62,782 nt of DNA from a virus. A model generated the notes under the pieces. That model searched no databases and was not told where the DNA came from. It saw only the letters and a list, made by a program, of their open reading frames with translations. The translations under genes and the position numbers were made by a program. The stretch lies in the IMG/VR virus record IMGVR_UViG_3300010938_000039, positions 1-62,782 of that record; one strand, given 5' to 3'. How positions within the stretch are numbered: position 1 is the stretch's first letter; every line of letters starts with the position of its first letter. Below, in pieces: positions 888 through 36,444 of the stretch.

Positions 888-1255
888 TAAAGTTCTGTGA
901 ATACATGGTAGAAGATGATTTCTATGGAGAAAGGTACTGTGGGAAACCTGGCCGCATGATGCACAACAATACGAAATACCTTTTCTTGTGTAGATATCAT
1001 CAGCTTGTTGTTACAGGTCAAGAGAGGATCTTGGAGGAGTACAATCGATCGAATTATGCCCAAATCACGAAGATATGCCCTCAGTGCAAGAAAGAATTCA
1101 AGGTCCCACGGTACCTAGCGATGAGGACGATGCGGAATTTCTGCAGTCACAGTTGTAGAGGAAAATTCTACTACGAGCAATCGTATCTGAAAAAGAAAAA
1201 TGAGAGCAAGAATAAAACCAGTGTCGAGCCATTATCAGATTGCCGGCAGGTGTGA
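884..1255 (+). CDS. Small zinc-finger protein
   Basis: This 123-residue protein starts at TTG, overlapping the previous stop by 4 bases, 11 nt behind AGGAGGT at 866-872. An in-frame ATG at 905 is an alternative start. Two metal-binding parts are visible: an N-terminal C...C...C-x2-H set and a central CPQCKKEF followed by FCSHSC, arranged like a treble-clef finger. The C-terminus is very basic. A nucleic-acid-binding role is likely; no nuclease motif is evident. Not assigned to a named family. Confidence 0.7.
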   Translation: MIKFCEYMVEDDFYGERYCGKPGRMMHNNTKYLFLCRYHQLVVTGQERILEEYNRSNYAQITKICPQCKKEFKVPRYLAMRTMRNFCSHSCRGKFYYEQSYLKKKNESKNKTSVEPLSDCRQV

Positions 1256-1261
1256 TATGCT
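1232..1261 (+). promoter_or_regulatory. Candidate promoter before the MoxR/VWA genes
   Basis: TTATCA at 1232-1237 and an extended -10 (TGA-TATGCT, hexamer 1256-1261) are 18 bp apart. They lie about 50 bp before the MoxR start. Seen by eye only. Confidence 0.35.
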
Positions 1262-1312
1262 TGCGGTGGCGGCCAGAACGGCCTTATCGATTCTGGGAAG
1301 GAGGGATTCATC

Positions 1313-2419
1313 GTGGAGGCATATGCACAATCCGCAATCGCATTGGCGATCCAGACTAGGCTTCCTGTCCTTCTTTGGGGTGGCCCCGGTACTGGCAAAA
1401 CGTCTTTCGTCAATCAGATTGCCAAGCATCTCGGTGTTCCGATTGAGACGATCATCGCTAGCATCCGTGAGCCTTCTGACTTCGCTGGCCTACCGGTTGT
1501 TCGTGATGATGGAGTTGTTTTTGAGCCACCGGCATGGGCAAAGCGTCTCGCGTCTCTAGATGGAGATGGGGGAATCCTCTTCATCGATGAGATTTCGACA
1601 ACTCCTCCTGCAGTGCAGGCTGCACTGTTGAGGGTCATCCATGAGGGGGTTGTCGGTGACATCACGCTCCCGAAGACCATCTCTAAGGTGGCGGCAGCCA
1701 ATCCGCCGGAGCAGGCGGCGGGGGGCTGGACGCTTGCCCCGCCTCTTGCGAACAGGTTCGTTCACTTCGACTGGACAACGTCTTATGAGCGATGGGCTGA
1801 TGGCGCTATCGATCGGTGGAAGAACGTGAATTACTACATCCCTGTCCTTCCTAAGGACTGGGAGGATCGTATCCCGGACGCTCTTTCTTTGGTGTCCGCA
1901 TATATCCGCCACCGACCGACCCAGCTCTACCAGCTTCCTCAGCACGACTCTGAGGCTGGTCGTGCATGGGCGTCTCCACGTACCTGGGAGATGGCCGCAA
2001 TCCTGATGGCCGCTGCGAATGCGGCTGGTGTGAACGATGATGTTCGCGTGACGCTCATCTCCGGTGCGGTCGGCTCTGCTGTGGCGATCGAGTTCATCAA
2101 TTGGTCGAATGACCTCGATCTACCGGACCCAGAGTGGTTGCTCGAGAACCCGACCAAGTATAAGGTTCCAGACAGGACCGATAGGGTCTATGCAGTCCTG
2201 TCTTCCGTGCTGGCCGCAGCTCTGACGAATCTCACGAGGGAGCGGTGGCTGGCTGTCTGGCATATCCTTGCTGAGACTGCTAAGGAGAAGGCCCCCGATA
2301 TCGCGGCTTTCGCCGCTAAGACGTTGGTGCAGAAGATTGATATGAACTCGAACCTGCCAATCCCGAAGAAGGAGCTTGCAGTCTTCACGCCGATTCTTAA
2401 GGAAGTGAACCTAATCTGA
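1313..2419 (+). CDS. MoxR-type AAA+ ATPase
   Basis: A 368-residue AAA+ ATPase. Walker A is GGPGTGKTS near residue 25 and Walker B is GILFIDEIS near residue 85, followed by the MoxR-like PPAVQAALLRVIHEG stretch. The GTG start is preceded by AAGGAGGG at good spacing. It couples by TGATG overlap to a VWA metallopeptidase-like gene. MoxR ATPases act as chaperones that remodel or insert metal into partners, usually VWA proteins encoded next door. The target here is unknown; it could be a phage structure or a host complex. Confidence 0.88.
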   Translation: MEAYAQSAIALAIQTRLPVLLWGGPGTGKTSFVNQIAKHLGVPIETIIASIREPSDFAGLPVVRDDGVVFEPPAWAKRLASLDGDGGILFIDEISTTPPAVQAALLRVIHEGVVGDITLPKTISKVAAANPPEQAAGGWTLAPPLANRFVHFDWTTSYERWADGAIDRWKNVNYYIPVLPKDWEDRIPDALSLVSAYIRHRPTQLYQLPQHDSEAGRAWASPRTWEMAAILMAAANAAGVNDDVRVTLISGAVGSAVAIEFINWSNDLDLPDPEWLLENPTKYKVPDRTDRVYAVLSSVLAAALTNLTRERWLAVWHILAETAKEKAPDIAAFAAKTLVQKIDMNSNLPIPKKELAVFTPILKEVNLI

Positions 2420-3609
2420 TGAAGGTAGAACGGATTGCAGCGGCCAGGCTCTTCCTGGCGAATCATCGTCCGTATCTCTCGGTGGCTCTTTGGTCGTTGA
2501 TGCCCAAACCCATCGAGGGGATGGGGACGTTCGCCGTGGATAAGTACTGGCGACTCTACTATGATCCCCAGCTGGATTGGGATGTTCAGACGACGGCGGC
2601 GGTCCTGTATCACGAGGTGTTCCATCTCCTGCGGGACCATGCCGGTCGTGCCAGTGAATCCCGAGATCCGACCATCTGGAACCTAGCGGGAGATTGCGAG
2701 ATTAACGATGATATCCGGGAAGAAGGGTTCTGGAACCTTCCAGAGAACTGTGTTTACCCGGACACCTTCGGGCTTGAAGATGGGAAGCTCGCGGAATATT
2801 ACTACGAGCAGCTCATCAAGAACGCGGTATTCGTTCAGGCCGAAGGGCCAGCACCTGGTGCCGGTCAGTGTGGCTCGGCAGCTGGTGGGCCGAGAAGGTC
2901 ATGGGAGGAATACGACGGTAGCGACAAGAAGATAGGGCAAGCGGAGGGGCGACTGATCGCTCGTAAGGTGGCTGAGGATATCCAGCATTACCGAGAAAGA
3001 GGGACAGTCCCGGCTGGTTGGGCGAGATGGGCTGAGGAGTTCCTTAACCCAAAGGTCGATTGGCGGAGAGAACTCCGTGCTCTCATCTTCAACTCGGTCG
3101 CCGATGTGGTCGGGAAGGTGGACTACACTTATCGTCGTCCGTCTCGCAGACAGTCCGCTTTCTCGGATGTCGTGATGCCGTCGATGACGGAACCGATGGT
3201 GAAGGTCGCGGTGATCATCGACACTTCTGGTTCCATGAATCAGGAGGATCTCAATGCGGCCTTGACAGAGGTGAAGGGTATCCTCGATGCCACAGGGGCT
3301 AGGGAGGGCGTTACGGTCTTGTCGGTCGATGCTGCCGTTCATTCCGTGCAGCGGGTGTTCAGTGCTCGTCAAGTGAAACTCGCTGGTGGAGGCGGGACGG
3401 ATATGCGTGTCGGCTTCGATGAGGTCGCTAGGTTGCGTCCACGACCTAACGTGCTCGTGGTGTTGAGTGACTTCTATACGCCCTGGCCGGATTCGCCCCC
3501 GAAGGGGCTCTCCAGGGTTATCGGGGTCTGCATCAATAGTGATATCGAGATTACGAATGTGCCATCTTGGCTCAAGGTAGTGAAGGTCGATACGAGGGGT
3601 GAGGGGTGA
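2419..3609 (+). CDS. VWA-like protein with metallopeptidase-like domain
   Basis: A 396-residue protein with two parts. The N-terminal half carries YHEVFHLLRDH (HExxH at residues 65-69) followed by WNLAGDCEIND, the signature of the predicted metallopeptidase domain found with VWA-like domains (COG3864 type). The C-terminal half is a VWA fold with a DTSGSMN MIDAS motif near residue 268 and a later GGGTDM. The ATG overlaps the MoxR stop, so the two are co-translated. MoxR/VWA pairs are known from bacteria. Whether the peptidase centre is active cannot be judged here. Confidence 0.85.
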   Translation: MKVERIAAARLFLANHRPYLSVALWSLMPKPIEGMGTFAVDKYWRLYYDPQLDWDVQTTAAVLYHEVFHLLRDHAGRASESRDPTIWNLAGDCEINDDIREEGFWNLPENCVYPDTFGLEDGKLAEYYYEQLIKNAVFVQAEGPAPGAGQCGSAAGGPRRSWEEYDGSDKKIGQAEGRLIARKVAEDIQHYRERGTVPAGWARWAEEFLNPKVDWRRELRALIFNSVADVVGKVDYTYRRPSRRQSAFSDVVMPSMTEPMVKVAVIIDTSGSMNQEDLNAALTEVKGILDATGAREGVTVLSVDAAVHSVQRVFSARQVKLAGGGGTDMRVGFDEVARLRPRPNVLVVLSDFYTPWPDSPPKGLSRVIGVCINSDIEITNVPSWLKVVKVDTRGEG

Positions 3610-3962
3610 TGCCGAAGATCCCAGAATCCCCTCCAACGGCTCCGACGTATCGGTATGCGAAGCCGAAGGGGCATAAACAGCAGAAGATTGATACCGCGAG
3701 GTTGCTTGCTATCATGTTCTCGTCTGAGATGGTCTTGCCTCGTAGTGGATCGAAGATCCACTGCGGTTACGGAGAACCACTTGTAACGCTTTGCGGTATC
3801 AAAAGGAACCTTAGAAGGGTGAACGAGCGGTTCATCTCATTGATATCGAATGCCGAGGGGCCGATCAGTTGGGCGGACCTTCCGAAGGTGTGGCAATGCG
3901 CTAGGTGTGCCGAGATCTTCAGGACCGTAAGTGAGGCGATAGGAGATTATGAAGATGTATAG
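3609..3962 (+). CDS. Conserved small protein with zinc-ribbon-like cysteines
   Basis: A 117-residue protein. The ATG at 3609 overlaps the VWA stop and a GTG one codon upstream (3606) is also possible. A basic N-terminus (KPKGHKQQK) precedes a core with H-C ... TLCG ... and WQCARC near the C-terminus, a spacing that fits a zinc site. No family recognised. It sits between the VWA gene and RNase H and is probably in the same transcript. Confidence 0.65.
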   Translation: MPKIPESPPTAPTYRYAKPKGHKQQKIDTARLLAIMFSSEMVLPRSGSKIHCGYGEPLVTLCGIKRNLRRVNERFISLISNAEGPISWADLPKVWQCARCAEIFRTVSEAIGDYEDV

Positions 3963-4362
3963 GGCAAGTTGTGATGGATCTTCGAAGGGCAATCCTGGTT
4001 CGGCAGGAATCGGAATTGTCATTTTCAATGACAAAAATGAGGTGGTGAAAAAGATAAGTGAACACATAGGTGTAGCCACGAATAACGAAGCAGAATATCA
4101 TGCGGTGTTGCGTGGGATTTGCGAGGCAAAAGAACTTGGTGCTGACATGGTTATAATCCAGTCAGATAGTAAACTGGTAATCCATCAGATGACTGGCGAG
4201 TATCGGTCGAAAGCTCCGAACCTATGGAAGATTAGGTCGAAGATCCTCTTGGAGATGGAAGATATAGATGTGATTTTCAAGCATATCCCTAGAGAGCAGA
4301 ATGAGCTCGCTGATACGCTTGCCAAACAGGGGGCAGCAGATGGAAAAGGAACGAGACACTGA
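3949..4362 (+). CDS. Ribonuclease HI-like protein
   Basis: A 137-residue RNase H fold protein. The four expected acidic residues are in their motifs: D in CDGSSKGNPG, E in NNEAEY, D in QSDSKLV and D in ELADTLAKQG. These match the RNase HI/reverse-transcriptase-like family that cleaves RNA in RNA:DNA hybrids. A role in primer removal or R-loop clearing is inferred. Two ATGs (3949, 3955) are possible; the second has better spacing from AGGAG. The gene overlaps the preceding one by 14 bp. Confidence 0.9.
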   Translation: MKMYRASCDGSSKGNPGSAGIGIVIFNDKNEVVKKISEHIGVATNNEAEYHAVLRGICEAKELGADMVIIQSDSKLVIHQMTGEYRSKAPNLWKIRSKILLEMEDIDVIFKHIPREQNELADTLAKQGAADGKGTRH

Positions 4363-4798
4363 TACAGGCAGATCCCTTGATGGTGTTGATGTCACGCTTA
4401 TGGCTTTAGAGGGCGATGACCGCCTTCTTCAGACCATGCAAGATGACATCTATCCAGTCATGGTATTCATGACGAGATATAGCGGTGTCTACGAAGGAGA
4501 TAGGTGGGCGGCGATATGCGCATGGGAGATACCGGAGGAAGCGCATGGGAGTGATATCGAATGCGCGGAATGGTGGGCACAGGTAGGAGATAAGTGGGCA
4601 GGGGTTGGGCCAACGCCGAATTCCGCCGTGCTTGAACTATACAAGAAGATAAAAAAGAGATACTCCGAAGATCCTTTGAGCGAGCACTGGCCTATACCCA
4701 CATTCAAAATGGCCGATGCATTCAGATTTGATTGTGAGTCTTTCAGGAACGAAACTCTGAACAGGATGGACGAAAGGGATTACTTCGATGACCATTGA
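4340..4798 (+). CDS. Hypothetical protein
   Basis: A 152-residue protein when started at ATG 4340, behind AGGGGGC; the open frame extends to 4301, but the extra residues look non-native. It is acidic with several Trp. The pattern WAAICAWEIPEEAHGSD...AEWWAQVGDKWAG is not one I recognise. It overlaps RNase H upstream and the phosphatase downstream, so it is translated in the same operon. Confidence 0.65.
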   Translation: MEKERDTDTGRSLDGVDVTLMALEGDDRLLQTMQDDIYPVMVFMTRYSGVYEGDRWAAICAWEIPEEAHGSDIECAEWWAQVGDKWAGVGPTPNSAVLELYKKIKKRYSEDPLSEHWPIPTFKMADAFRFDCESFRNETLNRMDERDYFDDH

Positions 4799-5258
4799 GG
4801 TAGTAGAAGTTGTACCGCATCTGTGGCAGGGCCCTCATCCCAATCCAGAAGATGAGGAGATTATGAGGTGGGATCTAGTCGTCGGTGCCGCAGAAGAGGC
4901 GATGCAGCCCATCTATAAGGTGAACTGGCTTTACCTGCCGCTCAGGGATTCGGACGAAGAATATCAGAATGTCAGGATGATGATGGTGGCAAGAAGAACT
5001 GCCGCCTTTATAGCTGATCTTCTCGAAGATGGCGCTGATGTGTTCGTATTCTGCGGAGCAGGGCTGAATAGGAGTGGATTGATAGTAGCAAGAACTCTGA
5101 TGTTCAGAGGATTCTCTCCGATAGAATCGATACAGGAGGTTCGAAGAGCAAGGGGTTCGATGGCCCTTTCGAATGGTGGTTTCGTCACTTGGTTGATGGC
5201 CGAAGGCGGTATGGCAGCGTCGGATATGCTCTTGTCCGAAATAATCACTCAAGAGTGA
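4788..5258 (+). CDS. Dual-specificity/tyrosine phosphatase-like protein
   Basis: A 156-residue protein with the C-x5-R loop of cysteine phosphatases: FCGAGLNRSG, with Cys89 and Arg95. LPLRDSD upstream (Asp near 54) could supply the general acid. Length and layout match small dual-specificity phosphatases. It may dephosphorylate a host or phage protein, or a nucleotide or RNA 5' end; the substrate is unknown. The ATG overlaps the preceding gene. Confidence 0.85.
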   Translation: MTIEVVEVVPHLWQGPHPNPEDEEIMRWDLVVGAAEEAMQPIYKVNWLYLPLRDSDEEYQNVRMMMVARRTAAFIADLLEDGADVFVFCGAGLNRSGLIVARTLMFRGFSPIESIQEVRRARGSMALSNGGFVTWLMAEGGMAASDMLLSEIITQE

Positions 5259-5259
5259 G

Positions 5260-5535
5260 ATGGAAAACGAAGACTTCTGTTACGGGTGTTTCTTCGGAAC
5301 CCCTACAACGACCCGTAACGGGCATCCGGTATGTCAGGAATGCGCCAACAGGCTTGGCCGAGATGATTGGCCAGTTGATACCAGTACATATAATTCTCCT
5401 TCTTCTTACGCATGGGCACTTGATGCTCTCCGTCTCTGTTGGCGATGCATCAAGAAAAAGACCAATGATCCGCCAGATGGTGTAGGTCTTTGCGAAGATT
5501 GTAAAGAGGAATTGCGTCAACTGTCGAATACGTAA
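5260..5535 (+). CDS. Small zinc-ribbon protein
   Basis: A 91-residue protein with three CxxC pairs: CYGC, CQEC and CWRC, plus CEDC near the end, consistent with two zinc sites. It begins one base after the phosphatase stop. It ends just before the LexA-boxed promoter, so it is likely the last gene of the upstream operon. Function unknown. Confidence 0.7.
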   Translation: MENEDFCYGCFFGTPTTTRNGHPVCQECANRLGRDDWPVDTSTYNSPSSYAWALDALRLCWRCIKKKTNDPPDGVGLCEDCKEELRQLSNT

Positions 5536-5643
5536 TCTCTCGACGTACTCAAATCTGGCTCATATAATGTCCGAGCCTAAAAGGAGAGAAAAGAGGCAAA
5601 AAAGTGCTGACTCAGCAGAGGGTTCCGACTCCGGGTGCAATCT

Positions 5644-5657
5644 CGAACATACGTTCG
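5644..5657. promoter_or_regulatory. LexA (SOS) box upstream of the Ubl operon
   Basis: CGAACATACGTTCG has the GAAC-N4-GTTC form of Gram-positive and actinobacterial LexA boxes, with 5-bp perfect arms. It directly abuts the -35 hexamer at 5658, where bound LexA would block RNA polymerase. Confidence 0.75.
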
Positions 5658-5687
5658 TTGTCAACTCTTGGTCTTGTTTGGTATCAT
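5658..5687 (+). promoter_or_regulatory. Promoter of the ubiquitin-like operon
   Basis: TTGTCA (5658-5663) and TATCAT (5682-5687) are separated by 18 bp. The same hexamers with the same spacing recur at 15629-15658. Transcription would start near 5694, about 90 bp before the first gene. Confidence 0.75.
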
Positions 5688-5695
5688 CCGCTCGG

Positions 5696-5727
5696 GCCGG
5701 GAGATCCCGGCATCGGACCTTGAGAAC
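5696..5727 (+). promoter_or_regulatory. Leader hairpin plus CCTTGAGAAC element
   Basis: GCCGGGA (5696-5702) pairs with TCCCGGC (5705-5711) at the expected 5' end of the transcript. CCTTGAGAAC follows at 5718-5727. The same order, hairpin then CCTTGAGAAC-like word, recurs at 15664-15706, and in variant form on the minus strand at 22101-22110 and 23013-23050. An antitermination or RNA-processing role is possible but untested. Confidence 0.5.
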
Positions 5728-5784
5728 AGAATAGTGAAAAGTGAGGCCCCCACTAGGAAAGTCGATAAAGGAAGGGGGTGCGAA

Positions 5785-6513
5785 GTGGAAGTCTTGAAGG
5801 ACGTGGAGCACTACACTTCTTTCGACGACTTCGCGAAGGACTCATGGAAGGCAGCCGTAGATAGTCTGATCTACGGTTGTGAACTTTCTTTGGAGGAGTA
5901 CCGTGATCGACTCTGGAACGAGGTCGTTCTCGTCGGCAAGCTCCCCACGGTCGAGGAGCTCGACTTCGTCAAGTCCTTCAAGAACCTGTCATGGTCGTAC
6001 CAGTTCCCATACGTGTTCGTGACTACGAAGTCGCTCGTTACGGAGAAGCGGTACTACTACCATCAGCGCAGACTCGGGAAGTTCACCATCGCCATGAGCG
6101 TGCCGAACAACGCCATATCACTCTCGGAGTGGTCGTGGGCGCCGCATCTCCTCGTCTTCCCGGCAGGAGACAACTTCATGCTGGGCGATGGAGTGCTGAT
6201 CTATCATCCGCACGTCGGAAGTGATGGCGAGATCTGTCTCGGGAACTACAAGTACCTCATCCAAAACTTCGTCGCGAATATGGAGTGGGCATCGACCATC
6301 GATGCAATCATTCACTGCCTGATGAACCCGAATCTAGAAGATGAGGTGGGTCGTCGAATAGTGATGTGGCCATACAAGAACGGGAGTCCTCCTAAAGGGG
6401 TGTGTCCCAAGTGCCTCAATAGGAAGGAATACTGCGAGTGTTGTCCCAACTGTCATGAGCTAGGTTGCATCTGTTGCATCGATTGCGACTCATACCCATG
6501 TCGGTGTGAGTAG
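5785..6513 (+). CDS. E2-like ubiquitin-conjugating-fold protein with Cys-rich tail (copy A)
   Basis: A 242-residue protein from GTG 5785, behind GGAAGGGG; the frame extends to 5635 but crosses the promoter. Residues about 95-195 carry the E2 signature: HPHVGSDGEICLG places Cys151 ten residues after His141, exactly as in HPN...C of eukaryotic E2s, followed by W168 and MNPNLEDE, which match the conserved helix and PNPEDP region. The last 40 residues contain about a dozen cysteines (CPKC, CECCPNC, CICCIDC, CRC), probably zinc sites that could act like a built-in RING. It would accept the activated Ubl from the E1-like enzyme downstream and transfer it to targets. Family assignment is by motif only. 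Confidence 0.8.
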   Translation: MEVLKDVEHYTSFDDFAKDSWKAAVDSLIYGCELSLEEYRDRLWNEVVLVGKLPTVEELDFVKSFKNLSWSYQFPYVFVTTKSLVTEKRYYYHQRRLGKFTIAMSVPNNAISLSEWSWAPHLLVFPAGDNFMLGDGVLIYHPHVGSDGEICLGNYKYLIQNFVANMEWASTIDAIIHCLMNPNLEDEVGRRIVMWPYKNGSPPKGVCPKCLNRKEYCECCPNCHELGCICCIDCDSYPCRCE

Positions 6514-6530
6514 TGGGAGGGGGTGAAGGC

Positions 6531-7748
6531 ATGGTAACACTCATCTACACAGGTTTAGACGGCGAAGTCCATCGCGTGGAGAATGACAACAGCATCCCAA
6601 CGTTCTTGGACTATCTCTCCGCCTACTTCTGGAGTGTGATCGGTGAGAGCCACAAGCTCATCGACGAATACTCGCGGCAGTTAGAGTCGCTCCGTCTCGA
6701 CGATTTCGAGACAGAGGAAGGATACCAACTCGAACAGAATCGACTGAAGCATGGCATCAGATACAACCAGGAACACGCCAACTCGATGCTCGAGTGGATG
6801 TCTAAGGTCACGAACCGGGAGAAGTTCAGACATGAGCTGAGCATCATCAAGAAGATTGACGGAGTCGCCAACGTCTACCTGTCACTCGACAGCACCATCG
6901 AGAAGTGGGACGATTCGATCTTCCCTGACGCAGAACACTACATCAACCGTCGGCATCAGTACGTCGTAGTGGAGACGGAGGACCTCCTCACTCCGCCGAT
7001 GGGGGCTCGGTTCTTGCCGAAGAATCTCGGGAGTTTCGTCATCGTCTTGCCGTTGGCCCACTTCGATACCTACGTGCTTCCGCTTTCTGGAAACTATGTG
7101 TATGACGACCTCATGCACTTCCATCCTCATATCAGTGAAACCGGCAGCCCTTGTATGGGGAACATCTCTCATGCGCTTCCGCCACTCATCGAGTCGGGTG
7201 AGGTCGCTGCGGCGGTGCAGCTCATGATCGAGTTCCTCACGAACCCGAATCCAGATGATGACTGGGGGAAGGCGATCAACCTATGGCCGTACATCGACGG
7301 GTACATCCCGGATGTCTGCGAACAGTGCTGGCATGAGGATGACGACTGCGAGTGTTGCCCGAACTGTGGGTTGTACGAATGCGAGTGTTGTATCCAGTGC
7401 GGCAACTACCCCTGCACGTGTTGCCCGGACTGCGGGGAAGATCCCTGCACTTGTCTTTGGCCGTGGGATGACGGTGTAGGATGTGAGTTCTGTGCAGATT
7501 CCGGCAGAGAGCCGTGCGATGACGGGAAGGGCAAGGGCGACTACAACCTGAAGTGTCCACAAGTAAGTAAGTATCGGTATCCCGATGACGAACCCTGGCC
7601 GTTCAGTGAGGATCGGCCCGGCTGCGAGTTCTGTGCGAGTATTGCCAAGAAGGCGAATCTGGAAGTGTCGGTAACGCCGTGTTACAATGGTCTTGGCCGT
7701 GGCTACTTCAACTACTACTGCTACTACGCGGTTCGGTACTCGGGCTGA
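6531..7748 (+). CDS. E2-like protein with long Cys-rich tail (copy B)
   Basis: A 405-residue paralogue of copy A, from ATG 6531 behind GGGAGGGGG; GTG 6513 is an alternative. It has an extra charged helical N-terminal region of about 120 residues. The E2-like core follows: HPHISETGSPCMG with His198 and Cys208, again ten apart, then LTNPNPDDD. After residue 262 comes a dense Cys array (CEQC, CECCPNCG, CECCIQCG, CTCCPDCG) and two more CEFC modules, enough for several zinc ions. A 17-bp gap separates it from copy A. Two different E2s in one operon may serve different targets, or one may act mainly as a scaffold or E3. Confidence 0.78.
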   Translation: MVTLIYTGLDGEVHRVENDNSIPTFLDYLSAYFWSVIGESHKLIDEYSRQLESLRLDDFETEEGYQLEQNRLKHGIRYNQEHANSMLEWMSKVTNREKFRHELSIIKKIDGVANVYLSLDSTIEKWDDSIFPDAEHYINRRHQYVVVETEDLLTPPMGARFLPKNLGSFVIVLPLAHFDTYVLPLSGNYVYDDLMHFHPHISETGSPCMGNISHALPPLIESGEVAAAVQLMIEFLTNPNPDDDWGKAINLWPYIDGYIPDVCEQCWHEDDDCECCPNCGLYECECCIQCGNYPCTCCPDCGEDPCTCLWPWDDGVGCEFCADSGREPCDDGKGKGDYNLKCPQVSKYRYPDDEPWPFSEDRPGCEFCASIAKKANLEVSVTPCYNGLGRGYFNYYCYYAVRYSG

Positions 7749-7768
7749 GTGAGGAAAGGAGGAAGTAA

Positions 7769-8557
7769 GTGACTGATAACCCCACCGCCTACTTCACGCC
7801 CTACGCATGGGCGAAGTTGTGGGCATACGTTCGGAACGCGACTGCAGAGATTGCCGGTATGGGGATCGTGGAGGTAGTGGATAACGACTACCTCCTGGTT
7901 TCCGATGTGTTCATCGTGGAGCAGGAGGCATCGGCAGCTCATGCCGACTTCGATGTCGAGGGAGTGGCGAGGTTCATGGAGGAACTCATCGCCGCCGGTC
8001 GTGAGGATGACATCCCGAAGATGAAGTTGTGGTGGCACTCTCACGGCACCCTCGAAGCCTACTTCAGCTCCAGGGACACGCAGACGATCGATGAGTGGAA
8101 GAACACTTCTTACCTCATCTCCATCGTCTGCAACAAGAAGAACCGTTACTCGGCTCGACTCGATCTGTGGAGTCCAATCAGGATGGCCACTGATGTGGAT
8201 GTCGAGATCTTCTCGGTGATCCCAGAGGAGGAGATCGACTCCATCAAGAAGGAGATTGCCGAGAAAGTGAAGACACCGAAGATCACTTCCGGCAAGGTCT
8301 ACTACACCGGGTACACAGGTGGAACCGATTACCTAGTGAAGTCCTTGTCTCGCAAGGAGTTGAAGAAGAAGGAGAAGGGGCATCATCATGATGAGCCCGA
8401 CATGACCTATGATGAATACATCGAGCACCTCATGAGTGACAAGTGTTGCTCGGACATGGGGTGCTGCGGACGGATGGACTACTGGGACCGGAAGTTCTTC
8501 GGAGAGGACTTCGACGACATCGAGGTCATCGGCGAAGACACCGATACCGAGCACTAA
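7769..8557 (+). CDS. JAB/MPN+ (JAMM) metalloprotease, probable Ubl-removing enzyme
   Basis: A 262-residue protein from GTG behind AAAGGAGG. It has the complete JAMM signature: Glu27 in TAEIAGMG, then WWHSHG (His90, His92) and Asp103 exactly ten residues after the second His. All zinc ligands and the catalytic Glu are present, so it should be active. In ubiquitin-like systems such enzymes cleave the Ubl from targets or process its C-terminus. The Ubl here already ends in Gly, so deconjugation is more likely. The C-terminal 60 residues hold a His/Cys cluster (GHHHD, DKCCSDMGCCG) that may bind metal. Confidence 0.88.
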   Translation: MTDNPTAYFTPYAWAKLWAYVRNATAEIAGMGIVEVVDNDYLLVSDVFIVEQEASAAHADFDVEGVARFMEELIAAGREDDIPKMKLWWHSHGTLEAYFSSRDTQTIDEWKNTSYLISIVCNKKNRYSARLDLWSPIRMATDVDVEIFSVIPEEEIDSIKKEIAEKVKTPKITSGKVYYTGYTGGTDYLVKSLSRKELKKKEKGHHHDEPDMTYDEYIEHLMSDKCCSDMGCCGRMDYWDRKFFGEDFDDIEVIGEDTDTEH

Positions 8558-8600
8558 AGAAACGGCGCGTAGAAGTGCGGACTCAGGAAAGGAAGTGGGG

Positions 8601-9272
8601 ATGACGGAGATCGACTACTGGCGTCAACTCGACCTGATCTCACCGAACGAACTCCGGGATGCTTTCGTGACCATCATCGGAGTCGGTGGCATCGGCTCTC
8701 CGACTGCACTGGCTCTTGCGAAGATGGGGGTTCCCGAGATCGAAGTGTGGGATGCAGACACAGTCGAGAACCACAACCTGCCGGTGCAGTTGTATCGCAA
8801 GAGTGATATCGGAAGGAAGAAGGTCCATGCTCTAGCCGATGTGCTGGCTGAGTTCACTGGTGCAGTGGTTCATCCGGTGGATAGGAAGTTCACTAGGAAC
8901 GATTCTTTCTCGAAGAAGGGGATCGTCATCTCTACAGTCGATTCCATGTCTGCGAGGAAGAACATCTGGTACGCAGTCAAGAGGAACAAGAACCTGGTGG
9001 ACACTTACATCGACGCCAGGATGGGGCTAGAAGTGGGGTGGGTGCAAGTCGTAAACCCGCTTTCAGCTCAAGATGTAACAAGATATTCTAAGACATTGTA
9101 CAGTGACGAGGATGCGGTAGATTTGCCTTGTACGGCCCGCGCTGTCTGGTACAATGAGGTTTGTATCGCAGCCGTCATCGGAAGGATAGTGAGAGGGGTG
9201 ATCAAACGGCAGCCGGTAGACAGAGAAGTCACTTTCGATCTGAACATGATGCTCTTCACCACATCCCAGTGA
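8601..9272 (+). CDS. E1-like (ThiF/MoeB family) adenylating enzyme
   Basis: A 223-residue Rossmann-type protein from ATG 8601, behind AGGAAAGGAAG. It shows the ThiF/E1 nucleotide motif GVGGIGS (27-33), DADTVENHNL (51-60) with the Asp and Asn/Arg region that positions ATP, STVDS (111-115), and Cys177 in DLPCTAR as a candidate catalytic cysteine. It is a minimal single-domain E1. It would adenylate the C-terminal Gly of the Ubl encoded next and pass it to an E2-like cysteine. The gap to the JAMM gene is 43 bp. Confidence 0.88.
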   Translation: MTEIDYWRQLDLISPNELRDAFVTIIGVGGIGSPTALALAKMGVPEIEVWDADTVENHNLPVQLYRKSDIGRKKVHALADVLAEFTGAVVHPVDRKFTRNDSFSKKGIVISTVDSMSARKNIWYAVKRNKNLVDTYIDARMGLEVGWVQVVNPLSAQDVTRYSKTLYSDEDAVDLPCTARAVWYNEVCIAAVIGRIVRGVIKRQPVDREVTFDLNMMLFTTSQ

Positions 9273-9310
9273 TAGTCCCTTACGGATATTGGGAAAGGAG
9301 GTGAAAAGAA

Positions 9311-9532
9311 GTGGTCAAGGTTGCTATCTTCGGCTCTGACGTTCCGGTCAAGGTCGTCGAGGCTGGCGCTTTGAAGTCGGTCCTGGAGCGAGTCTTCGAC
9401 AACCGCCGTTCCGCTGAGGAGGCCATCGAGGGGTACACGGTGCGACTCAACGGCACCACCGTTGACGATCTCGGGACGTACGTCCCGGAGGAGTCGCTCG
9501 TCACCCTCGTGCCTGAGGTGAAGGCGGGCTAA
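9311..9532 (+). CDS. Ubiquitin-like (beta-grasp, ThiS/MoaD-like) modifier
   Basis: A 73-residue protein from GTG behind a near-perfect AAAGGAGGTG. Its size and pattern fit a beta-grasp fold: strand VKVAIFG, strand VPVKVVE, a helix around residues 19-31, then YTVRLNGTTVDDLG and a final SLVTLVPEV strand. The chain ends in Ala-Gly with nothing after it, so the C-terminal Gly is ready for adenylation without processing. Its place as the last gene behind an E1-like enzyme, in an operon with E2-like and JAMM proteins, makes it the probable tag. ThiS/MoaD-type sulfur carrying is the main alternative, but that would not need E2s. Confidence 0.82.
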   Translation: MVKVAIFGSDVPVKVVEAGALKSVLERVFDNRRSAEEAIEGYTVRLNGTTVDDLGTYVPEESLVTLVPEVKAG

Positions 9533-9573
9533 GGCCGGGCACGGACGAAAGTCTGTCGTAACAGTCAGATCAT

Positions 9574-9619
9574 CCGCCGGGAGGAGTCGGGTTGGTGCCC
9601 CTCCCCCTCCTCCCGGCGG
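9574..9619 (+). terminator. Hairpin terminator closing the Ubl operon
   Basis: A 13-bp perfect stem, CCGCCGGGAGGAG (9574-9586) with CTCCTCCCGGCGG (9607-9619), loop 20 nt. There is no T run, as is common in actinobacteria. It marks the operon as a separate unit. Confidence 0.7.
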
Positions 9620-15628: not shown

Positions 15629-15658
15629 TTGTCAACTCTGAGCCCGAGATGGTATCAT
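15629..15658 (+). promoter_or_regulatory. Promoter of the small-gene region
   Basis: TTGTCA and TATCAT with an 18-bp spacer, the same hexamers and spacing as at 5658-5687. The adjoining bases (ACTCT after the -35, GG before the -10) are also shared, so the two promoters are copies. Confidence 0.75.
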
Positions 15659-30274: not shown

Positions 30275-30581
30275 ACCTATCGGAGAATACCTATGCAAGC
30301 AGTGCGGCAAGATGCCGATAGATAATCCGTCTGCCGTGGTCATCACGTTCCCCGAAGGGCTCAAGCTGCCTATCGCTGAGATAAAGTGCCACGGATGCGG
30401 CTCGAAGGTCCGTTCCGAGCTCACTTGGGAGGATGCCATCTTGTTCGATCAGGCAGGCGTCACCGTGAGGGGCTTCTCATTCGTAAGAGGACCAGCACTC
30501 ACCCAAGAAGAGATCGATTCATTCATCGCGAACTTCGACCGTGAGGTCGAACGGTTCTTGGATATCTGTAGCCGCAAATGA
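30267..30581 (+). CDS. Zinc-ribbon protein
   Basis: A 104-residue protein with CKQCGK and CHGCGSK pairs about 28 residues apart, a zinc ribbon, then an acidic helical tail. Overlaps the gene on each side. Confidence 0.62.
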   Translation: MAEPIGEYLCKQCGKMPIDNPSAVVITFPEGLKLPIAEIKCHGCGSKVRSELTWEDAILFDQAGVTVRGFSFVRGPALTQEEIDSFIANFDREVERFLDICSRK

Positions 30582-31558
30582 TCGACTCCATCGCTATCTA
30601 CATGGTTCCACCATCACAGGGGCCCGTGGATGGTTACTCCTACGCTGGTCTGAAGATGGTCGAGGCACTGAAAGCACTCGGGTACTCTACCCCATGGCGC
30701 GATGATGATGCTCCCGTTTCGGTCTCTTTCTGTCAGCCGGAATGGTATTCCCATGCGCAGTCTCAGTTCCGTATCGGATACACCCCGTGGGAATCCACCG
30801 TGATACCGAAATGGTGGCCCCAACACATGAACGAGATGGATCTCATCTGGACCACCTCGAAGTTCTGCAAGGAAGTATTCGAAGACAACGGGGTCACGAC
30901 CGAGATCCTCGTGGTCCCGCACGGGATTGACATCAAGGAATTCACACTATCACCTCGCAAGGAGGAAGATACCTTCTATTTCCTCCATATCGGAGAACCG
31001 GCGACCAGGAAGGGCGGACAGATGGTCGTCGACGCGTTCTGCAAGGTCTTCGCCGATGACGATTCGACCAGGCTCGTCATCAAGGCGAACGGATGGGCCG
31101 AGTGCCGGCTCCGCGAGCCGTTCGGGCCGGTCGATACCCACCCGAGGATAGAGTTGATAAAGGAACTCCTGAACATCCACGAGTTAAACGCCCTTTACCA
31201 CCGCTGCCATGCGCTGATCTACCCGTCGAATGGAGAAGGGTTCGGACTTATCCCGTTCCAGGCCATCGCCACCGGTATGCCGACGGCAGCGGTCGTATGG
31301 GGGGGCATAGCGGAGTTCGGCGAGTACTGCATCCCTATCGATTACAAGGTGGGGCCATCCGGCCACAGCTACCATCTCGGCGATTGGGCGCATCCAGACT
31401 TCGACAGCCTCTGCGAGGTGATGTATGATATCCGGCACCGGTACTCCGACTACGCAAGGGATGCCTACGATAACGCATTGGACGTTAGGAGGGAGTGGCA
31501 GTGGAAAGATATCATAGAGAACGCATTGAACATCAGTCTTTCTAAAGGCAAATCCTGA
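30578..31558 (+). CDS. Glycosyltransferase, GT-B fold (GT4-like)
   Basis: A 326-residue glycosyltransferase with an ATGA overlap. Landmarks are LVVPHGID (near 114), a YFLHIGEPATRKGG strand-loop, and YPSNGEGFGLIPFQAIATGMP, the GT4 sugar-nucleotide E-x7-E-like signature, with Glu in GEG. It would move a sugar from a nucleotide sugar to an acceptor: DNA, virion protein or host envelope. The aminotransferase and GNAT genes at 34361-35987 could make the donor. Confidence 0.85.
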   Translation: MIDSIAIYMVPPSQGPVDGYSYAGLKMVEALKALGYSTPWRDDDAPVSVSFCQPEWYSHAQSQFRIGYTPWESTVIPKWWPQHMNEMDLIWTTSKFCKEVFEDNGVTTEILVVPHGIDIKEFTLSPRKEEDTFYFLHIGEPATRKGGQMVVDAFCKVFADDDSTRLVIKANGWAECRLREPFGPVDTHPRIELIKELLNIHELNALYHRCHALIYPSNGEGFGLIPFQAIATGMPTAAVVWGGIAEFGEYCIPIDYKVGPSGHSYHLGDWAHPDFDSLCEVMYDIRHRYSDYARDAYDNALDVRREWQWKDIIENALNISLSKGKS

Positions 31559-31632
31559 CCCCCTCAGGGGACGAGAGTATACTTTCCCTCATCTTCGGTT
31601 GATTCGAGTAAACCATTCAGGAGGTGCTTTAG

Positions 31633-34386
31633 TTGTCTTCACCGCAACTTACGGAACAAGCTATCAGGGTATTGGAGGAGAGGTATTTCGATAAGGACGA
31701 GAACGGGAACATCATCGAGGATTGGGAAGGTCTTTCACGAAGGGTCGCCAGAGCTATAGCTTCTATCGAGTCCAGGTACGGGGTTGACCCGAGGCCGTGG
31801 GAGGAGTCGTTCTTCGACGCGATCTACAACCTCCGTTTCGTGCCGAACAGCCCAACACTGTTCAATGCTGGATCGCGTGGCGGGCTCGGGCTGCTGAGCG
31901 CCTGCTTCGTTCAGGTGCCCGACGATTCACTTGACTCTATCATGTTGCATGCTTGGCGTTCCGCGAAACTGTTCCAGGCTGGCGCTGGAGTAGGGTACAA
32001 CTTCTCCAACCTGCGGGAAGAAGGGGCCATGGTCCGTTCTTCCATGCGTCCATCCTCTGGAGCGATCTCCTTCATGTACCACATCTTCAACTCCATCGGC
32101 GAGGTCGTGAAGCAGGGCGGTCGTCGGCGCGCAGCGATGATGGGTCTTCTGAACGACGACCACCCAGAGATCGAGAGGTTCGTCACGTTCAAGAATCATG
32201 AATCTTCACTTACGAACTTCAACATCTCGGTGTTCGCCTCCGACCGGTTCATGGAAGCCGTTGAGAAAGACAAGCCGTGGCACCTCCTGGGCAGAACCAG
32301 TGGCAACGTTGTGAAGACCATCTCTGCGAAGGCGCTTATGGAGCAGATTGCCGAGAACAACTGGAAGATGGCCGAGCCCGGGATGATATGGCGCGACGCC
32401 ATCAACCGGTACAACCCACTAGCTCATCTCGGCGAGGAGTACCAGATCAACGCAGTTAATCCATGCGTCAGTGGAGATACCCTCATCCTTACCTCCCATG
32501 GTTACGTGCCGATACGTTCAGTGGTTGGGACCAAGGTGGAGGTTTGGAACGGCCAGCAGTGGTCGAAAGTTACCCCTAAAGTGACGGGTAGGAACCAGGA
32601 CATGCTGAAGGTCACGCTGAGCGACGGTTCCCAGCTGCGATGCACCCTGTACCACGGGTTCCACATCTGGGATGAGTCTCGTCCATTCAACCGGAGCACC
32701 CCGGTCCTGGTGGAAGCCAAGGACCTTCGACCCGGTATGAATCTGTGGAAGTACGAGATGCCCGTCATCGTAGAGGGCGAAGAAGTCGATACTTCCATCG
32801 CCTACACCCAGGGGGTGTACGCCGGGGACGGCTATCTCGCTAAGGATCGACAACAGCCGTGGGTATACCTGTATGGGGAGAAGGCAAATCTGCTGGACAG
32901 GATGGTGTACAGGTACCAGCACACTTCTGATAAATCGCACAGGATAGAGGTTTGCCTCGACCGGGATGTGGTCAAGGAGAAGACCTTCGTGCCGTTCAAC
33001 TGGTCTCTCGACGCCAGGTTGGCATGGCTTGCTGGACTGATCGATACTGACGGAACCATCACTCGAGATGGGGGCATCCAGATCGGAAGCATCAACAAGG
33101 AGTTCCTCGATGAAGTGAGGCTGATGCTTACCACGATGGGTGTTCAGGCCAAGGTGACGTTCATGCGTTCCGGTGGTCCTCGCCGGATGCCTGATGGTCA
33201 TGGTGGGACGAAGGAGTACGAAACCAAAGACTGCTACCGTTTGATCATCGCGGGGTCTGATGTCATCGCCCTCCGTCAGTACGGGCTCAGCGACTTCCTC
33301 CGCAGGGTGGACATACGGAACGTTTCCTGCAACCGCAGCGCCACCCAGTTCGTCCGCGTCGTCTCCGTAGAGCCGGATGGATTCGAAGAGGAAGTGTTCT
33401 GCTTCAATGAGCCGATCAACCACACCGGTACGTTCAACGGCATAGTCACGGCGCAGTGTTCGGAAGCTACCCTTCTCAATTTCGGCAATTGCTGTTTGGG
33501 GAGCATCAATCTCATGAAATACTTGCATGGCAAGGAGATCGACTGGGACGCGCTTGAAGCGACCACTCGCCTTGCCGTGCGGTTCCTCGATGATGTCATC
33601 GACGCCGACAACCATGTCGCGCCGGAGTTCGGGAAGGCCGCGAAGGATGTGCGCCGTATCGGCATCGGCGTGACCGGTTTCGCTGACATGCTCGTGATGA
33701 TGGATATCGTCTACGGCTCCGAATCCTCGTTCCGGGTGGCTCATGAGGTAGCTTCGTTCCTGAACCGGATAGCTGTTGATGAGTCAAGCAAGATCGCGAT
33801 GGAGAAAGGACCGTATCCGCTGTGGGACAAGAGTCTCCATAAGGACATGGGGCTCGTCCTTCGGAACATCTCGCTCCTTTCCATCGCACCAGAAGGTTCG
33901 AGGTCCATCATCACCAACACCTCACCTTCGATAGAGCCGAACTTCGGCCGGGTTATCGTGCGAACCAACAAGGGCATCGGATCGGGAACGTTCCCCCATC
34001 CGCTCGCATCGAACCCGGCGTTCCGGACTACCTACGAGGTCCCGTTCTGGGCGCACATCAAGATGCAGTCTGTGTGGCAGAACGCGATGAATGAGAATAT
34101 GGTTGGTCAGGCGATAAGCAAAACGAACAACGCACCGAAAGATATAAGTCCTGACGAACTGGCAGAAGCGTATCTCGAGGCGTGGCGGATTGGGTGCAAA
34201 GGGCTCACCGTGTATCGGGACACCAGTCGAGATGCGGTTTATTACGAGCATAAGGATGATGAAGTCCGGGACGAACACGGCAGGCTCGTGCTAGAATGCG
34301 CTACCGGTGCATGTGACATAGGTATGGCGAAGCCTCCTGTAAGGGCATTCAAGGAGCACGATGACGCAAAGGTATTACGGGGATGA
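31633..34386 (+). CDS. nrdJ: Class II (B12-dependent) ribonucleotide reductase with intein
   Basis: A 917-residue precursor from TTG behind CAGGAGGTG. The N-extein has RFVPNSPTLFNAG and FQAGAGVGYNFS; the C-extein has CCLGSINL and SIAPEGSRS, all typical of adenosylcobalamin-dependent NrdJ. An intein of 331 residues (278-608) interrupts the NP|C active-site motif. After splicing the enzyme has about 586 residues and makes dNTPs without oxygen or a second subunit. The usual C-terminal zinc ribbon is reduced to CATGAC. Confidence 0.92.
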   Translation: MSSPQLTEQAIRVLEERYFDKDENGNIIEDWEGLSRRVARAIASIESRYGVDPRPWEESFFDAIYNLRFVPNSPTLFNAGSRGGLGLLSACFVQVPDDSLDSIMLHAWRSAKLFQAGAGVGYNFSNLREEGAMVRSSMRPSSGAISFMYHIFNSIGEVVKQGGRRRAAMMGLLNDDHPEIERFVTFKNHESSLTNFNISVFASDRFMEAVEKDKPWHLLGRTSGNVVKTISAKALMEQIAENNWKMAEPGMIWRDAINRYNPLAHLGEEYQINAVNPCVSGDTLILTSHGYVPIRSVVGTKVEVWNGQQWSKVTPKVTGRNQDMLKVTLSDGSQLRCTLYHGFHIWDESRPFNRSTPVLVEAKDLRPGMNLWKYEMPVIVEGEEVDTSIAYTQGVYAGDGYLAKDRQQPWVYLYGEKANLLDRMVYRYQHTSDKSHRIEVCLDRDVVKEKTFVPFNWSLDARLAWLAGLIDTDGTITRDGGIQIGSINKEFLDEVRLMLTTMGVQAKVTFMRSGGPRRMPDGHGGTKEYETKDCYRLIIAGSDVIALRQYGLSDFLRRVDIRNVSCNRSATQFVRVVSVEPDGFEEEVFCFNEPINHTGTFNGIVTAQCSEATLLNFGNCCLGSINLMKYLHGKEIDWDALEATTRLAVRFLDDVIDADNHVAPEFGKAAKDVRRIGIGVTGFADMLVMMDIVYGSESSFRVAHEVASFLNRIAVDESSKIAMEKGPYPLWDKSLHKDMGLVLRNISLLSIAPEGSRSIITNTSPSIEPNFGRVIVRTNKGIGSGTFPHPLASNPAFRTTYEVPFWAHIKMQSVWQNAMNENMVGQAISKTNNAPKDISPDELAEAYLEAWRIGCKGLTVYRDTSRDAVYYEHKDDEVRDEHGRLVLECATGACDIGMAKPPVRAFKEHDDAKVLRG
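32464..33456 (+). mobile_element. LAGLIDADG intein in nrdJ
   Basis: The insert starts CVSGDTLIL (block A) right after the extein NP, has TQGVYAGDGYL and WLAGLIDTDGTI (the two LAGLIDADG-type helices), and ends HTGTFNGIVTAQ before extein Cys609. It ends in Gln instead of the usual Asn, a rarer splice type known from some viral RNR inteins. It sits at the active-site cysteine, so splicing is required for activity. The endonuclease motifs look intact. Confidence 0.9.
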
Positions 34387-34909
34387 GACGTATTGGTTTC
34401 GCCCTGTAGAGGAATCTGACCTCGAAGTACTGACCGAGCATAGGAATGACTTCGAGACTTGGACCAAGCTAACATCGCCCCTGCCCGTGATGGCTCATCG
34501 GCAGGTTAGATGGCTCGAGTCTTTAGGCCATGAAAATATGTATTTCATAGGCCACTACAGAGAGGACGGCATGAGCCTTCTTAGGCTCACCGATATCGAC
34601 TGGGCGAACCGTCATGCCGCCGTAGGGCTGGATGTGTTCAAGCCGTACCGTGGGTTCGGCCACGCAAAACCACTCTTCGCCCTACTCTGTAGGTATGCCA
34701 TACGGGAACTGGGGATGCACAGGCTATGGCTCTTGGTTCTCGAAGACAACATCGCCGCCCAACGGGTCTATCGCTCGGTGAACTTCGTTGAGGAGGGACG
34801 ATTCAGGCAGCATATATTCAGGCATGGAGAGTTCAAAGATTACGTATTGATGGGAGTATTGGAGGAAGAATTCGATGATTCCGCAATTCAAAGTTCATAT
34901 GAATCCTGA
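34361..34909 (+). CDS. GNAT N-acetyltransferase
   Basis: A 182-residue protein from ATG behind CAAGGAG. FRPVEESDLE start, GLDVFKPYRGFGHAKPLF (acetyl-CoA loop) and LEDNIAAQRVYRSVNFVEEG (last motif) are typical of the RimJ/RimL-like GNATs. Next to a DegT aminotransferase, it likely N-acetylates an amino sugar; protein acetylation is the alternative. Confidence 0.85.
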   Translation: MTQRYYGDETYWFRPVEESDLEVLTEHRNDFETWTKLTSPLPVMAHRQVRWLESLGHENMYFIGHYREDGMSLLRLTDIDWANRHAAVGLDVFKPYRGFGHAKPLFALLCRYAIRELGMHRLWLLVLEDNIAAQRVYRSVNFVEEGRFRQHIFRHGEFKDYVLMGVLEEEFDDSAIQSSYES

Positions 34910-35987
34910 GGCCGTCAACAAGGTGAGAACCGTTCTCGGTTCCGGCTACATCGGCCAAGGAGCCCGCGTCGAGGAGTTCGAGGAGCGTCTGAAGGAGAAG
35001 CTTGGTTTCAGTTACGGGGTAACGGTGAACTCCGGAACGGCCGCGCTCACGCTCGCACTCCGATTGATCGGGGTCGGGCCTGGGGATTCGGTGGTGAGCA
35101 CCCCGATGACCTGTTTGGCTACCAATGCCGCTATCACGCTCACCGGGGCAGACATCGTATGGGCTGATATCGATAAGTACGGCAACATAGATCCTGAGTC
35201 TGTAAGTGAGTCGATAAGGCAGAACACGAAAGCGGTCATGGCTGTCGACTGGGGTGGCATCCCTTGCGACTTCGATGCGCTTCGGAAGGCGATTGATGCA
35301 GCTCCGGCGAGGGGTACCCACGATATCCCGATCATCCAGGATGCCGCCCACGCCTTCGGCGCGACGTACCATGGCCGTCCCGTCGCTGCATGCGCCGACT
35401 ACACCGCCTTCTCCTTCCAAGCCATCAAGCACCTCACCACCGGCGATGGGGGGCTGCTCGTCACCCCCGCGTCTCAGTACGAGCGGGCCAAACTGCTCAG
35501 GTGGTACGGTCTCGATCGCACTTCCGGGGACAGGATGCGATGTCTCCAGAACGTCTATGAGATCGGCGATAAACTGCACATGAACGATATCGCTGCCGCG
35601 ATAGGGCTCGGGAACCTCGAGTCCGTCGATGAGGTCTTGGCCAAACACCGCGAGAACGCCAGGTACTACAACGACATCTTCTCACTCTACGGCGAACTGG
35701 TGGAAGTCCCACCAGGTGATGTAGACCCATCTTACTGGATATACACCATCCACGTACCGGACCCATCCGATTTCGAGCGATTCATGTTCAACAACGGCAT
35801 CTCGGTGTCGAAGGTACACAACCGGAACGACAACTACACCGCCTTCGAAGCATACCGGAAGCCACTGCCGAACCTAGACAGGTGGTTCTCCACCATGACC
35901 TGCATCCCTGTCGGGTGGTGGCTGACCGTCGAGGACCGTAGTCGCATCGCTGAGCTGGTAATCCGCTACATCACTCCGAGCTGGTGA
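34875..35987 (+). CDS. DegT/DnrJ/EryC1-type sugar aminotransferase
   Basis: A 370-residue PLP enzyme from ATG behind GGAGGAAG. SGTAALTLALRL, IIQDAAHAFGATY and FSFQAIKHLTTGDGG (catalytic Lys) are hallmarks of nucleotide-sugar aminotransferases. With the GNAT before it, it could make an N-acetylated amino sugar for the glycosyltransferases at 30578 and 36350. Confidence 0.9.
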   Translation: MIPQFKVHMNPEAVNKVRTVLGSGYIGQGARVEEFEERLKEKLGFSYGVTVNSGTAALTLALRLIGVGPGDSVVSTPMTCLATNAAITLTGADIVWADIDKYGNIDPESVSESIRQNTKAVMAVDWGGIPCDFDALRKAIDAAPARGTHDIPIIQDAAHAFGATYHGRPVAACADYTAFSFQAIKHLTTGDGGLLVTPASQYERAKLLRWYGLDRTSGDRMRCLQNVYEIGDKLHMNDIAAAIGLGNLESVDEVLAKHRENARYYNDIFSLYGELVEVPPGDVDPSYWIYTIHVPDPSDFERFMFNNGISVSKVHNRNDNYTAFEAYRKPLPNLDRWFSTMTCIPVGWWLTVEDRSRIAELVIRYITPSW

Positions 35988-35988
35988 T

Positions 35989-36444
35989 ATGAAACCCAGG
36001 TTCGTCGATAAACTCATCGATATGGCTGCATCTGTGGACGGGCGGTACCGTCTTGCAGCGATGGTCTATGACGATAAACACAACCCGATATCGTTCGGGA
36101 CCAACTCCTATGTGAAGACCCATCCCGTCCAAGCGGCGCTGACCGGGGCGCAGAAGATCTTCATCCATGCCGAGATACAGGCACTACTTCGATCTTCCGG
36201 GAAACAAGGTCGAGGCATCTTGGTCGTGCGGGTGAACAAGAACGGACTTGCCATGGCGAGGCCGTGTCGTGCCTGTTATTGGGCCATCATCGCTTCTGGG
36301 CTAAGTGAGATTATGTATTCAGACGAGACTGGTTCTATCATGAAAGAGTATGTCGATAGACCTGATGAGATTCAGGATAGGATTCGTATGTTTAACGGTC
36401 GGCCATTGGGATCTCATGTACGACCACATGAAGAGCTTGTATGA
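35989..36444 (+). CDS. Cytidine/dCMP deaminase-like protein
   Basis: A 151-residue protein starting 1 bp after the aminotransferase. HAEIQALL supplies the zinc His and catalytic Glu; PCRACYWAI supplies the two zinc Cys. It is shorter than standard dCMP deaminases. It may convert dCMP to dUMP in nucleotide supply alongside the reductase, or act on another amino-base. Confidence 0.8.
   Translation: MKPRFVDKLIDMAASVDGRYRLAAMVYDDKHNPISFGTNSYVKTHPVQAALTGAQKIFIHAEIQALLRSSGKQGRGILVVRVNKNGLAMARPCRACYWAIIASGLSEIMYSDETGSIMKEYVDRPDEIQDRIRMFNGRPLGSHVRPHEELV

Follow-up and report, generated by a model that had tools for sequence, protein, structure and literature searches.

A predicted ubiquitin-like conjugation operon with two E2-like proteins in a tailed phage genome

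We analysed a stretch of 62,782 bases, IMG/VR virus record IMGVR_UViG_3300010938_000039, hereafter the window, in which all positions are given. Five plus-strand genes at 5785–9532, in the order E2a, E2b, JAB, E1 and Ubl and separated by 17–43 bases (Table 1), encode two proteins resembling ubiquitin-conjugating (E2) enzymes, a JAB/JAMM metallopeptidase, an E1-like adenylating enzyme and a ubiquitin-like modifier (Ubl). We interpret them as a phage-encoded pathway for reversible ubiquitin-like conjugation, with a probability of roughly 0.8. An earlier, sequence-only reading had claimed five such genes on one strand, with two HPH-x7-C motifs, a JAMM site and a GxGGxGS motif; all five genes were present, and every motif was found in the gene named. 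In a six-frame translation of the whole window, HPHx7CxG occurs exactly twice, once each in E2a and E2b. The operon start previously placed at 5644 was corrected: a palindromic operator lies there, and E2a more likely starts at the GTG at 5785, which is preceded by the ribosome site AGGAAGGGGG. The window also encodes a portal protein and a major capsid protein 53–54% identical to those of Streptomyces phages, e.g. LukeCage and StarPlatinum; therefore, it belongs to a tailed phage, and the host is likely actinobacterial.

Table 1. Features of the predicted conjugation module and its flanks, in window coordinates
Feature	Position	Strand	Remarks
E2a, E2-like conjugating enzyme, 242 aa	5785..6513	+	HPH141-143 at nt 6205-6213; Cys151 at nt 6235-6237
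E2b, second E2-like protein, 405 aa	6531..7748	+	HPH198-200 at nt 7122-7130; Cys208 at nt 7152-7154
JAB/JAMM metallopeptidase, 262 aa	7769..8557	+	E-HSH-x7-S-x2-D site complete; HSH at nt 8036-8044
Minimal E1/ThiF-type adenylating enzyme, 223 aa	8601..9272	+	GxGGxGS; Cys177 at nt 9129-9131
Ubiquitin-like modifier (Ubl), 73 aa, beta-grasp	9311..9532	+	Ends ...PEVKAG, no tail to remove
Palindromic operator CGAACATACGTTCG	5644..5657	.	Exact match to Gram-positive/actinobacterial LexA box; adjoins -35 element
Promoter TTGTCA-18 bp-TATCAT	5658..5687	+	Motif TTGTCAACTC-N12-GGTATCAT; exact second copy at 15629-15658
Strong GC hairpin closing the operon	9574..9619	+	No T-run; kept in sister contig L007

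The E1 protein has the adenylation fold, nucleotide motif and catalytic residues of the E1/ThiF superfamily, and matched Pfam ThiF at 3.3e-22 (79.3 bits; cut-off, 28.1); its top scores were with ThiF/MoeB-type families. Residues G27, G29, D51, D53, E56, N59, K74, D114, R119 and C177 are invariant in 23 aligned sequences, and Cys177 is the predicted thioester-forming cysteine. Comparison with the 84.7 kb sister contig gave a dN of 0.008 and a dS of 0.207 (dN/dS about 0.04), indicating that E1 is under purifying selection.

The JAB protein combines a JAB domain with an E + HxH-x7-S-x2-D zinc site (Glu27, HSH90-92, Ser100 and Asp103), as expected of the JAMM/JAB family. It matched Prok-JAB with an E-value of 5.7e-6, above the cut-off, and its family profile matched an archaeal N11-like protein (6e-9) and also Rpn11 in the PDB. 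E27, H90, S91, H92, S100 and D103 are invariant in 21 aligned sequences. Because the window Ubl has no tail beyond its terminal Gly, the predicted role of this JAB is deconjugation. The Ubl itself has the fold and C-terminal Gly of a beta-grasp modifier: its AlphaFold 2 (AF2) model (predicted local distance difference test, pLDDT, 87) matched MoaD, Urm1 and ubiquitin in Foldseek with a probability of 1.0, and its profile matched SAMP2 (7e-6) in an alignment running through the terminal Gly. The gene differs from its sister-contig counterpart by three nucleotides and no amino acids, and its product is 42% identical to the Ubl of viral locus L016. A match to an S4 domain (E 0.0044) lay below the cut-off and was attributed to chance.

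The two E2-like proteins share 31% identity, and the HxH, Cys and Gly of their motif are invariant across 24 aligned sequences. A 121-position profile of the E2 core, searched against 177,635 distinct PDB sequences, gave 75 matches at E<=5 (best E 0.0095). The best 60 of these 75 were all ubiquitin-conjugating enzymes, their fusions or engineered forms, and the alignment ran over a strand, the HPN-x7-Cys motif and the helix after it, with HPHvsengsaClG placed on HPNINSNGSICL. We regard the specificity of these matches as stronger evidence than the E-value alone. Core homology, an active-site Cys and an upstream His at E2 spacing thus place the proteins, by sequence, in the UBC superfamily. A full-length E2 alignment searched against the PDB had given coiled-coil noise, owing to the long N-terminal helices, and was replaced by the core-trimmed profile. 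The closest viral matches of the E2a model were uncharacterised phage proteins (Foldseek probability 0.97–1.00).

Both window E2s carry C-terminal Cys-rich tails containing the 11-residue repeat xCCxxCxxxxC. The tail of E2b is longer, with CC-x2-C repeats of 11 residues and two GCEFCA...PC modules; its end (7480–7745) consists of two copies of GCEFCA...PC..G.G.[YF]N..C, a module absent from E2a. At least two CxxC pairs follow the core in 16 of 43 E2s, and the E2 tail of the cultured Xanthomonas phage PhiXhv-15, CSCCSDCESSPCKCCNRC, is closely similar to those of the window. Such tails probably bind Zn and may serve in target choice.

When E2a, E2b and JAB were searched as single proteins, neither the phage collection nor the viral contigs yielded relatives, and the family was reached only through an E1 alignment whose seeds were crAss-like, Flavobacterium phage and viral-contig relatives. 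This alignment led to 151 IMG/VR relatives with one pattern, of which 80 were kept. These 80 viral loci were chosen for encoding E1 and are not fully non-redundant. A JAB gene, recognised by motif or hidden Markov model (HMM), lies near E1 in 77 of them; an E2 was detected by HMM in 42, or in 62 when the less strict HxH...CxG motif seen in the crAss-like group was also counted; a Ubl was present in 42 and all four parts in 39, counts that describe conservation and are not an independent test, because the HMMs were derived from sequences of some of the same loci. Two E2 genes occur in L027, L029, L106, L107, L108 and L110. Cultured relatives include Xanthomonas, Flavobacterium and Bacteroides (crAss-like) phages, and the E2 gene stands directly upstream of JAB in many phages. 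PhiXhv-15, Fpv1 and DAC15 are among the cultured carriers. Among 48 loci taken from assemblies of bacteria and archaea, 21 likewise had all four parts. Many of these are on short, possibly viral contigs of metagenome-assembled genomes and some on long ones, so that a restriction of the module to phages is not proven. On one long contig (L090, Uhrbacteria, 569 kb), three E2-like genes in a row are followed by JAB, E1 and Ubl, as a chromosomal copy or prophage.

The Ubls of the relatives vary at their ends, which read KGN, KGGR, KGG, VKAG and similar. In L035, three Ubls are joined in one frame at KGN-V, and in L013 two are joined at KGG-GE; further tandem forms are found in L039, L042, L041, L030 and L107. 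These tandem Ubls would be polyubiquitin-like precursors needing JAMM processing. Second Ubl copies downstream of E1 in L026, L038, L039, L046 and L047 share a Gly-rich tail, GRPSGGGRGNNP, after KGN, which is maybe a fused leader or a substrate for cleavage. In PhiXhv-15, a candidate Ubl ending in GG accompanies E2 and E1; it was assigned by position and sequence reading and had no Ubl HMM score, and the 12.5 kb examined showed no JAB.

The sequence-only reading had described a promoter with a LexA box. The palindrome is an exact match, and three perfect CGAACN4GTTCG sites in the window (the third at 22183), compared with 0.09 expected and with none of 100 shuffles reaching three, are not due to chance. 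The promoter motif likewise has three matches with at most three mismatches against 0.04 expected, and a palindrome lies 0 or 19 bases upstream of each exact promoter copy (5658 and 15629). Because two of the three boxes sit at an identical promoter, the box may serve as an operator of the phage itself instead of a site for host LexA. The repeated promoter and palindrome would fit a co-regulated early block. The hairpin at the end of the operon had been called a terminator; it is strong, but it lacks a T-run, and a terminator scan did not call it.

Near the module, other phages encode PhoH, single-stranded DNA-binding protein, exonuclease VIII, DnaB helicase and primase, and the window encodes RNase H, a dual-specificity phosphatase-like protein and a primase/helicase-like ATPase. 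These neighbourhoods point to an early/replication block rather than a tail block. For this reason, two uses proposed by the sequence-only reading, modification of competing phages' tails and of the phage's own virion, are mildly disfavoured.

We compared the module with known systems that use similar parts. Like the anti-phage operons called Bil (BilABCD, for bacterial ISG15-like), it holds a Ubl, an E2, a JAMM deubiquitinase and an E1 as separate genes. Unlike Bil, it is phage-encoded and has a second E2, Cys-rich E2 tails and an E1 of only 223 residues, and its family includes KG-N and KGG Ubl ends and tandem poly-Ubls. The BilABCD gene order is Ubl-E2-JAB-E1, which is also that of L016, L028, L040 and L104; many phage relatives thus share the Bil order. 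The PADLOC models for BilA, BilB and BilC matched none of 32 E2, JAB and Ubl proteins at E 0.01, and the BilD model matched E1 weakly (25 bits), as a distant homologue; by these models the module is not a Bil system. The layout had been claimed to differ from known Bil operons, and it does, although the second E2 and the Cys-rich tail recur in relatives and are not unique to the window. Compared with the Cap2 and Cap3 proteins of the anti-phage system CBASS, E1 resembles the E1 part of Cap2 (PADLOC E1-E2 model, 1.2e-17, as a distant homologue), and JAMM deconjugases are found in both, those of the module showing weak similarity (E 0.0013) to the JABs of CBASS. Type II CBASS has an E2-E1 fusion and a CD-NTase partner; in the phage operon, by contrast, separate genes encode E1 and E2, a dedicated Ubl is present and no CD-NTase gene was seen. 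SAMP2, from the archaeal SAMP2/Urm1 system, is the closest PDB match of the Ubl profile, and E1 and JAMM are likewise shared. That system is not known to use an E2, whereas the window module has two.

The PRTRC operons, which we take to be operon type 6d of Iyer et al. 2006, also encode a Ubl, JAB, E1 and E2 as separate genes, and PRTRC_ThiF matched E1 (1.3e-15). The scores are far below the curated cut-offs (57.4 against 144.75 bits for PRTRC_ThiF; 13.4 against 101.8 bits, E 0.042, for PRTRC_A), and neither the JAB-N protein nor the alpha-helical protein of type 6d was found with the module. The classical active-site His is missing from the E2s of type 6d, which have a His downstream of the Cys instead (PMC1779556); in contrast, the HxH upstream of the Cys is invariant in the 24 aligned E2s of the module family. 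The polyUbl operons of type 6e likewise combine E1 and JAB with tandem Ubl domains, but their RWD-like E2 is catalytically inactive and their JAB and E1 are mostly fused (Iyer et al. 2006, PMC1779556), whereas in the phage module the E2 retains its Cys and each part has a gene of its own. In the same survey, Ubl and JAB were described in phages only in tail assembly (PMC1779556). TapI-TapK of lambda and T1 resemble the module as a phage-encoded Ubl with a C-terminal Gly plus a JAB peptidase, but they lack E1 and E2 and lie in a tail gene block rather than an early/replication block. By its parts the module resembles Bil, CBASS and PRTRC, and by the features compared we assign it to none of them. 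In the open literature, we recognised from titles and abstracts no paper describing a phage-encoded E1-E2-JAB-Ubl module, although preprints or subscription reports may exist. We regard it as a new form of bacterial ubiquitin-like conjugation, phage-borne and widespread.

From the parts and their families, the intact active sites, the linkage across phages and the purifying selection on E1, we infer the activity, order of transfer, zinc binding, timing and targets as follows. E1 would adenylate the C-terminal Gly73 of Ubl with ATP and load Ubl onto Cys177, from which it would move to Cys151 of E2a or Cys208 of E2b. The E2s would transfer it to amino groups of proteins picked by their Cys-rich, probably Zn-binding tails, which are possible built-in E3-like parts, and the JAMM enzyme would strip it off again. 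Since the window Ubl appears already mature, JAMM would be needed only for removal; in relatives with KG-N, KGG-R or tandem Ubls it would also cut precursors. The module would be turned on from an operator-controlled early promoter beside replication genes, and on this ground the likeliest targets would be replication, repair or takeover proteins.

That the genes encode machinery for Ubl conjugation is very probable. The claim of a complete operon of this kind in a phage held up, as a prediction, in the sequence-level tests applied to it, and its parts did not fall into unrelated families: the Ubl model is a beta-grasp and the E2-core profile led to ubiquitin E2s. Several points weigh against this conclusion. 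E2a matched Pfam UQ_con only at E 0.0056 (16.7 bits; cut-off, 27), albeit aligned at the active site, and E2b had no relevant Pfam match. The E-value of the E2-core profile is modest, and much of it comes from the HPH-C motif. The AF2 model of E2a is mediocre (pLDDT 71), with helices, four strands and then helices, and had no significant Foldseek match in the PDB, the best sensible one being the Vps23 UEV domain (probability 0.30). An E2-binding (UFD) domain was not recognisable in E1, the window Ubl ends in KAG rather than GG, and the proposed class of targets is drawn from gene neighbourhood only. The weak Pfam score and fold match would fit a reading in which HPH-x7-C arose by convergence, as a metal or catalytic site, and E1, JAB and Ubl alone are real. 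We consider this very unlikely, as the E2-core profile retrieved ubiquitin E2s, not other Cys/His proteins, among the best 60 of its 75 matches, the H–C spacing is exact and the gene is immediately 5′ of JAB in many phages. Even less probable is a sulfur-carrier or small-molecule pathway, in which E1, the beta-grasp protein and JAB would provide a thiocarboxylate donor for thiamine, molybdopterin or siderophore synthesis. JAB is found in such operons (PMC1779556), E1 scores best against ThiF/MoeB-type families and some relatives' Ubls match ThiS (best 4.8e-9); but the operon holds E2 homologues in which the catalytic His and Cys are conserved, we noticed neither a rhodanese nor a cysteine desulfurase nor any biosynthetic enzyme in the vicinity, and poly-Ubl precursors and two E2s would make no sense for a carrier.

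The purpose of the conjugation is a more doubtful matter, and we only tentatively favour the tagging of proteins, from phage or host, that act in DNA replication, DNA repair or host takeover. A phage-carried defence similar to Bil would attach Ubl to competing phages' proteins or to a sensor and protect the infected or lysogenic cell from superinfection. The Bil-like gene order in some relatives, the resemblance of the operator to an SOS box and the related modules on contigs of bacterial assemblies agree with this. We nonetheless judge it unlikely in view of the PADLOC results and of the position of the module, which lies in replication neighbourhoods, including those of crAss-like and jumbo phages, and in no variable cargo spot as far as seen. 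Counter-defence, in which the phage would tag or untag host immune proteins (e.g. CD-NTases or Bil and CBASS Ubl conjugates) to disable them, seems unlikely to a similar degree: a complete E1-E2-Ubl-JAMM set in phages and the similarity of its JAMM enzymes to CBASS JABs would suit it, but JAMM alone would suffice to strip host conjugates, whereas the whole set with its dedicated Ubl is conserved.

Bacterial ubiquitin-like conjugation has mostly been studied as a means by which hosts resist phages. A complete, conserved pathway that phages themselves encode would reverse this picture and offer a tractable place to ask how viruses use a ubiquitin of their own. We suggest, with considerable reserve, that many bacterial viruses own a complete, dedicated ubiquitin system that serves as a regulatory code on replication or host proteins during infection. 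Its parts would be an E1, at least one E2 whose zinc-binding tail is a built-in E3-like element, a deconjugase and tandem poly-Ubl precursors. If so, it would be a branch of ubiquitin signalling used by viruses rather than hosts, and cellular systems could have drawn on it as a source. The poly-Ubl precursors and Cys-rich-tailed E2s also bear on the origin of eukaryotic-like ubiquitin features. Members in cultured phages are annotated as "thiamine biosynthesis protein" and hypothetical proteins, and the isolated Xanthomonas, Flavobacterium and Bacteroides phages make the question testable now.

Some further observations concern single loci. L003 (IMGVR_UViG_3300030451_002441) encodes, at 1050–6211, a TFB-like transcription factor, a 182-residue E1-like protein, a JAB-like protein and a DNA-ligase-like protein, and seems to be an archaeal virus in which E1 and JAB form a reduced pair. 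Upstream of the operon in the window (1313–3609), a MoxR-type ATPase is followed by a VWA-like protein (phrog_1297, phrog_1314); this pair and the other window genes tested were not conserved beside the module in relatives beyond the sister contig. The large subunit of ribonucleotide reductase (31633–34386) contains an apparent intein at an NPC/SEATL site, which starts with CVSGDTLILT and seems to end in ...TAQ before Cys instead of the usual His-Asn. The region at 30578–37006 was read from its sequence as encoding two glycosyltransferase-like proteins, a GNAT acetyltransferase and a DegT-type aminotransferase, and this block possibly modifies phage DNA or the capsid with a sugar.

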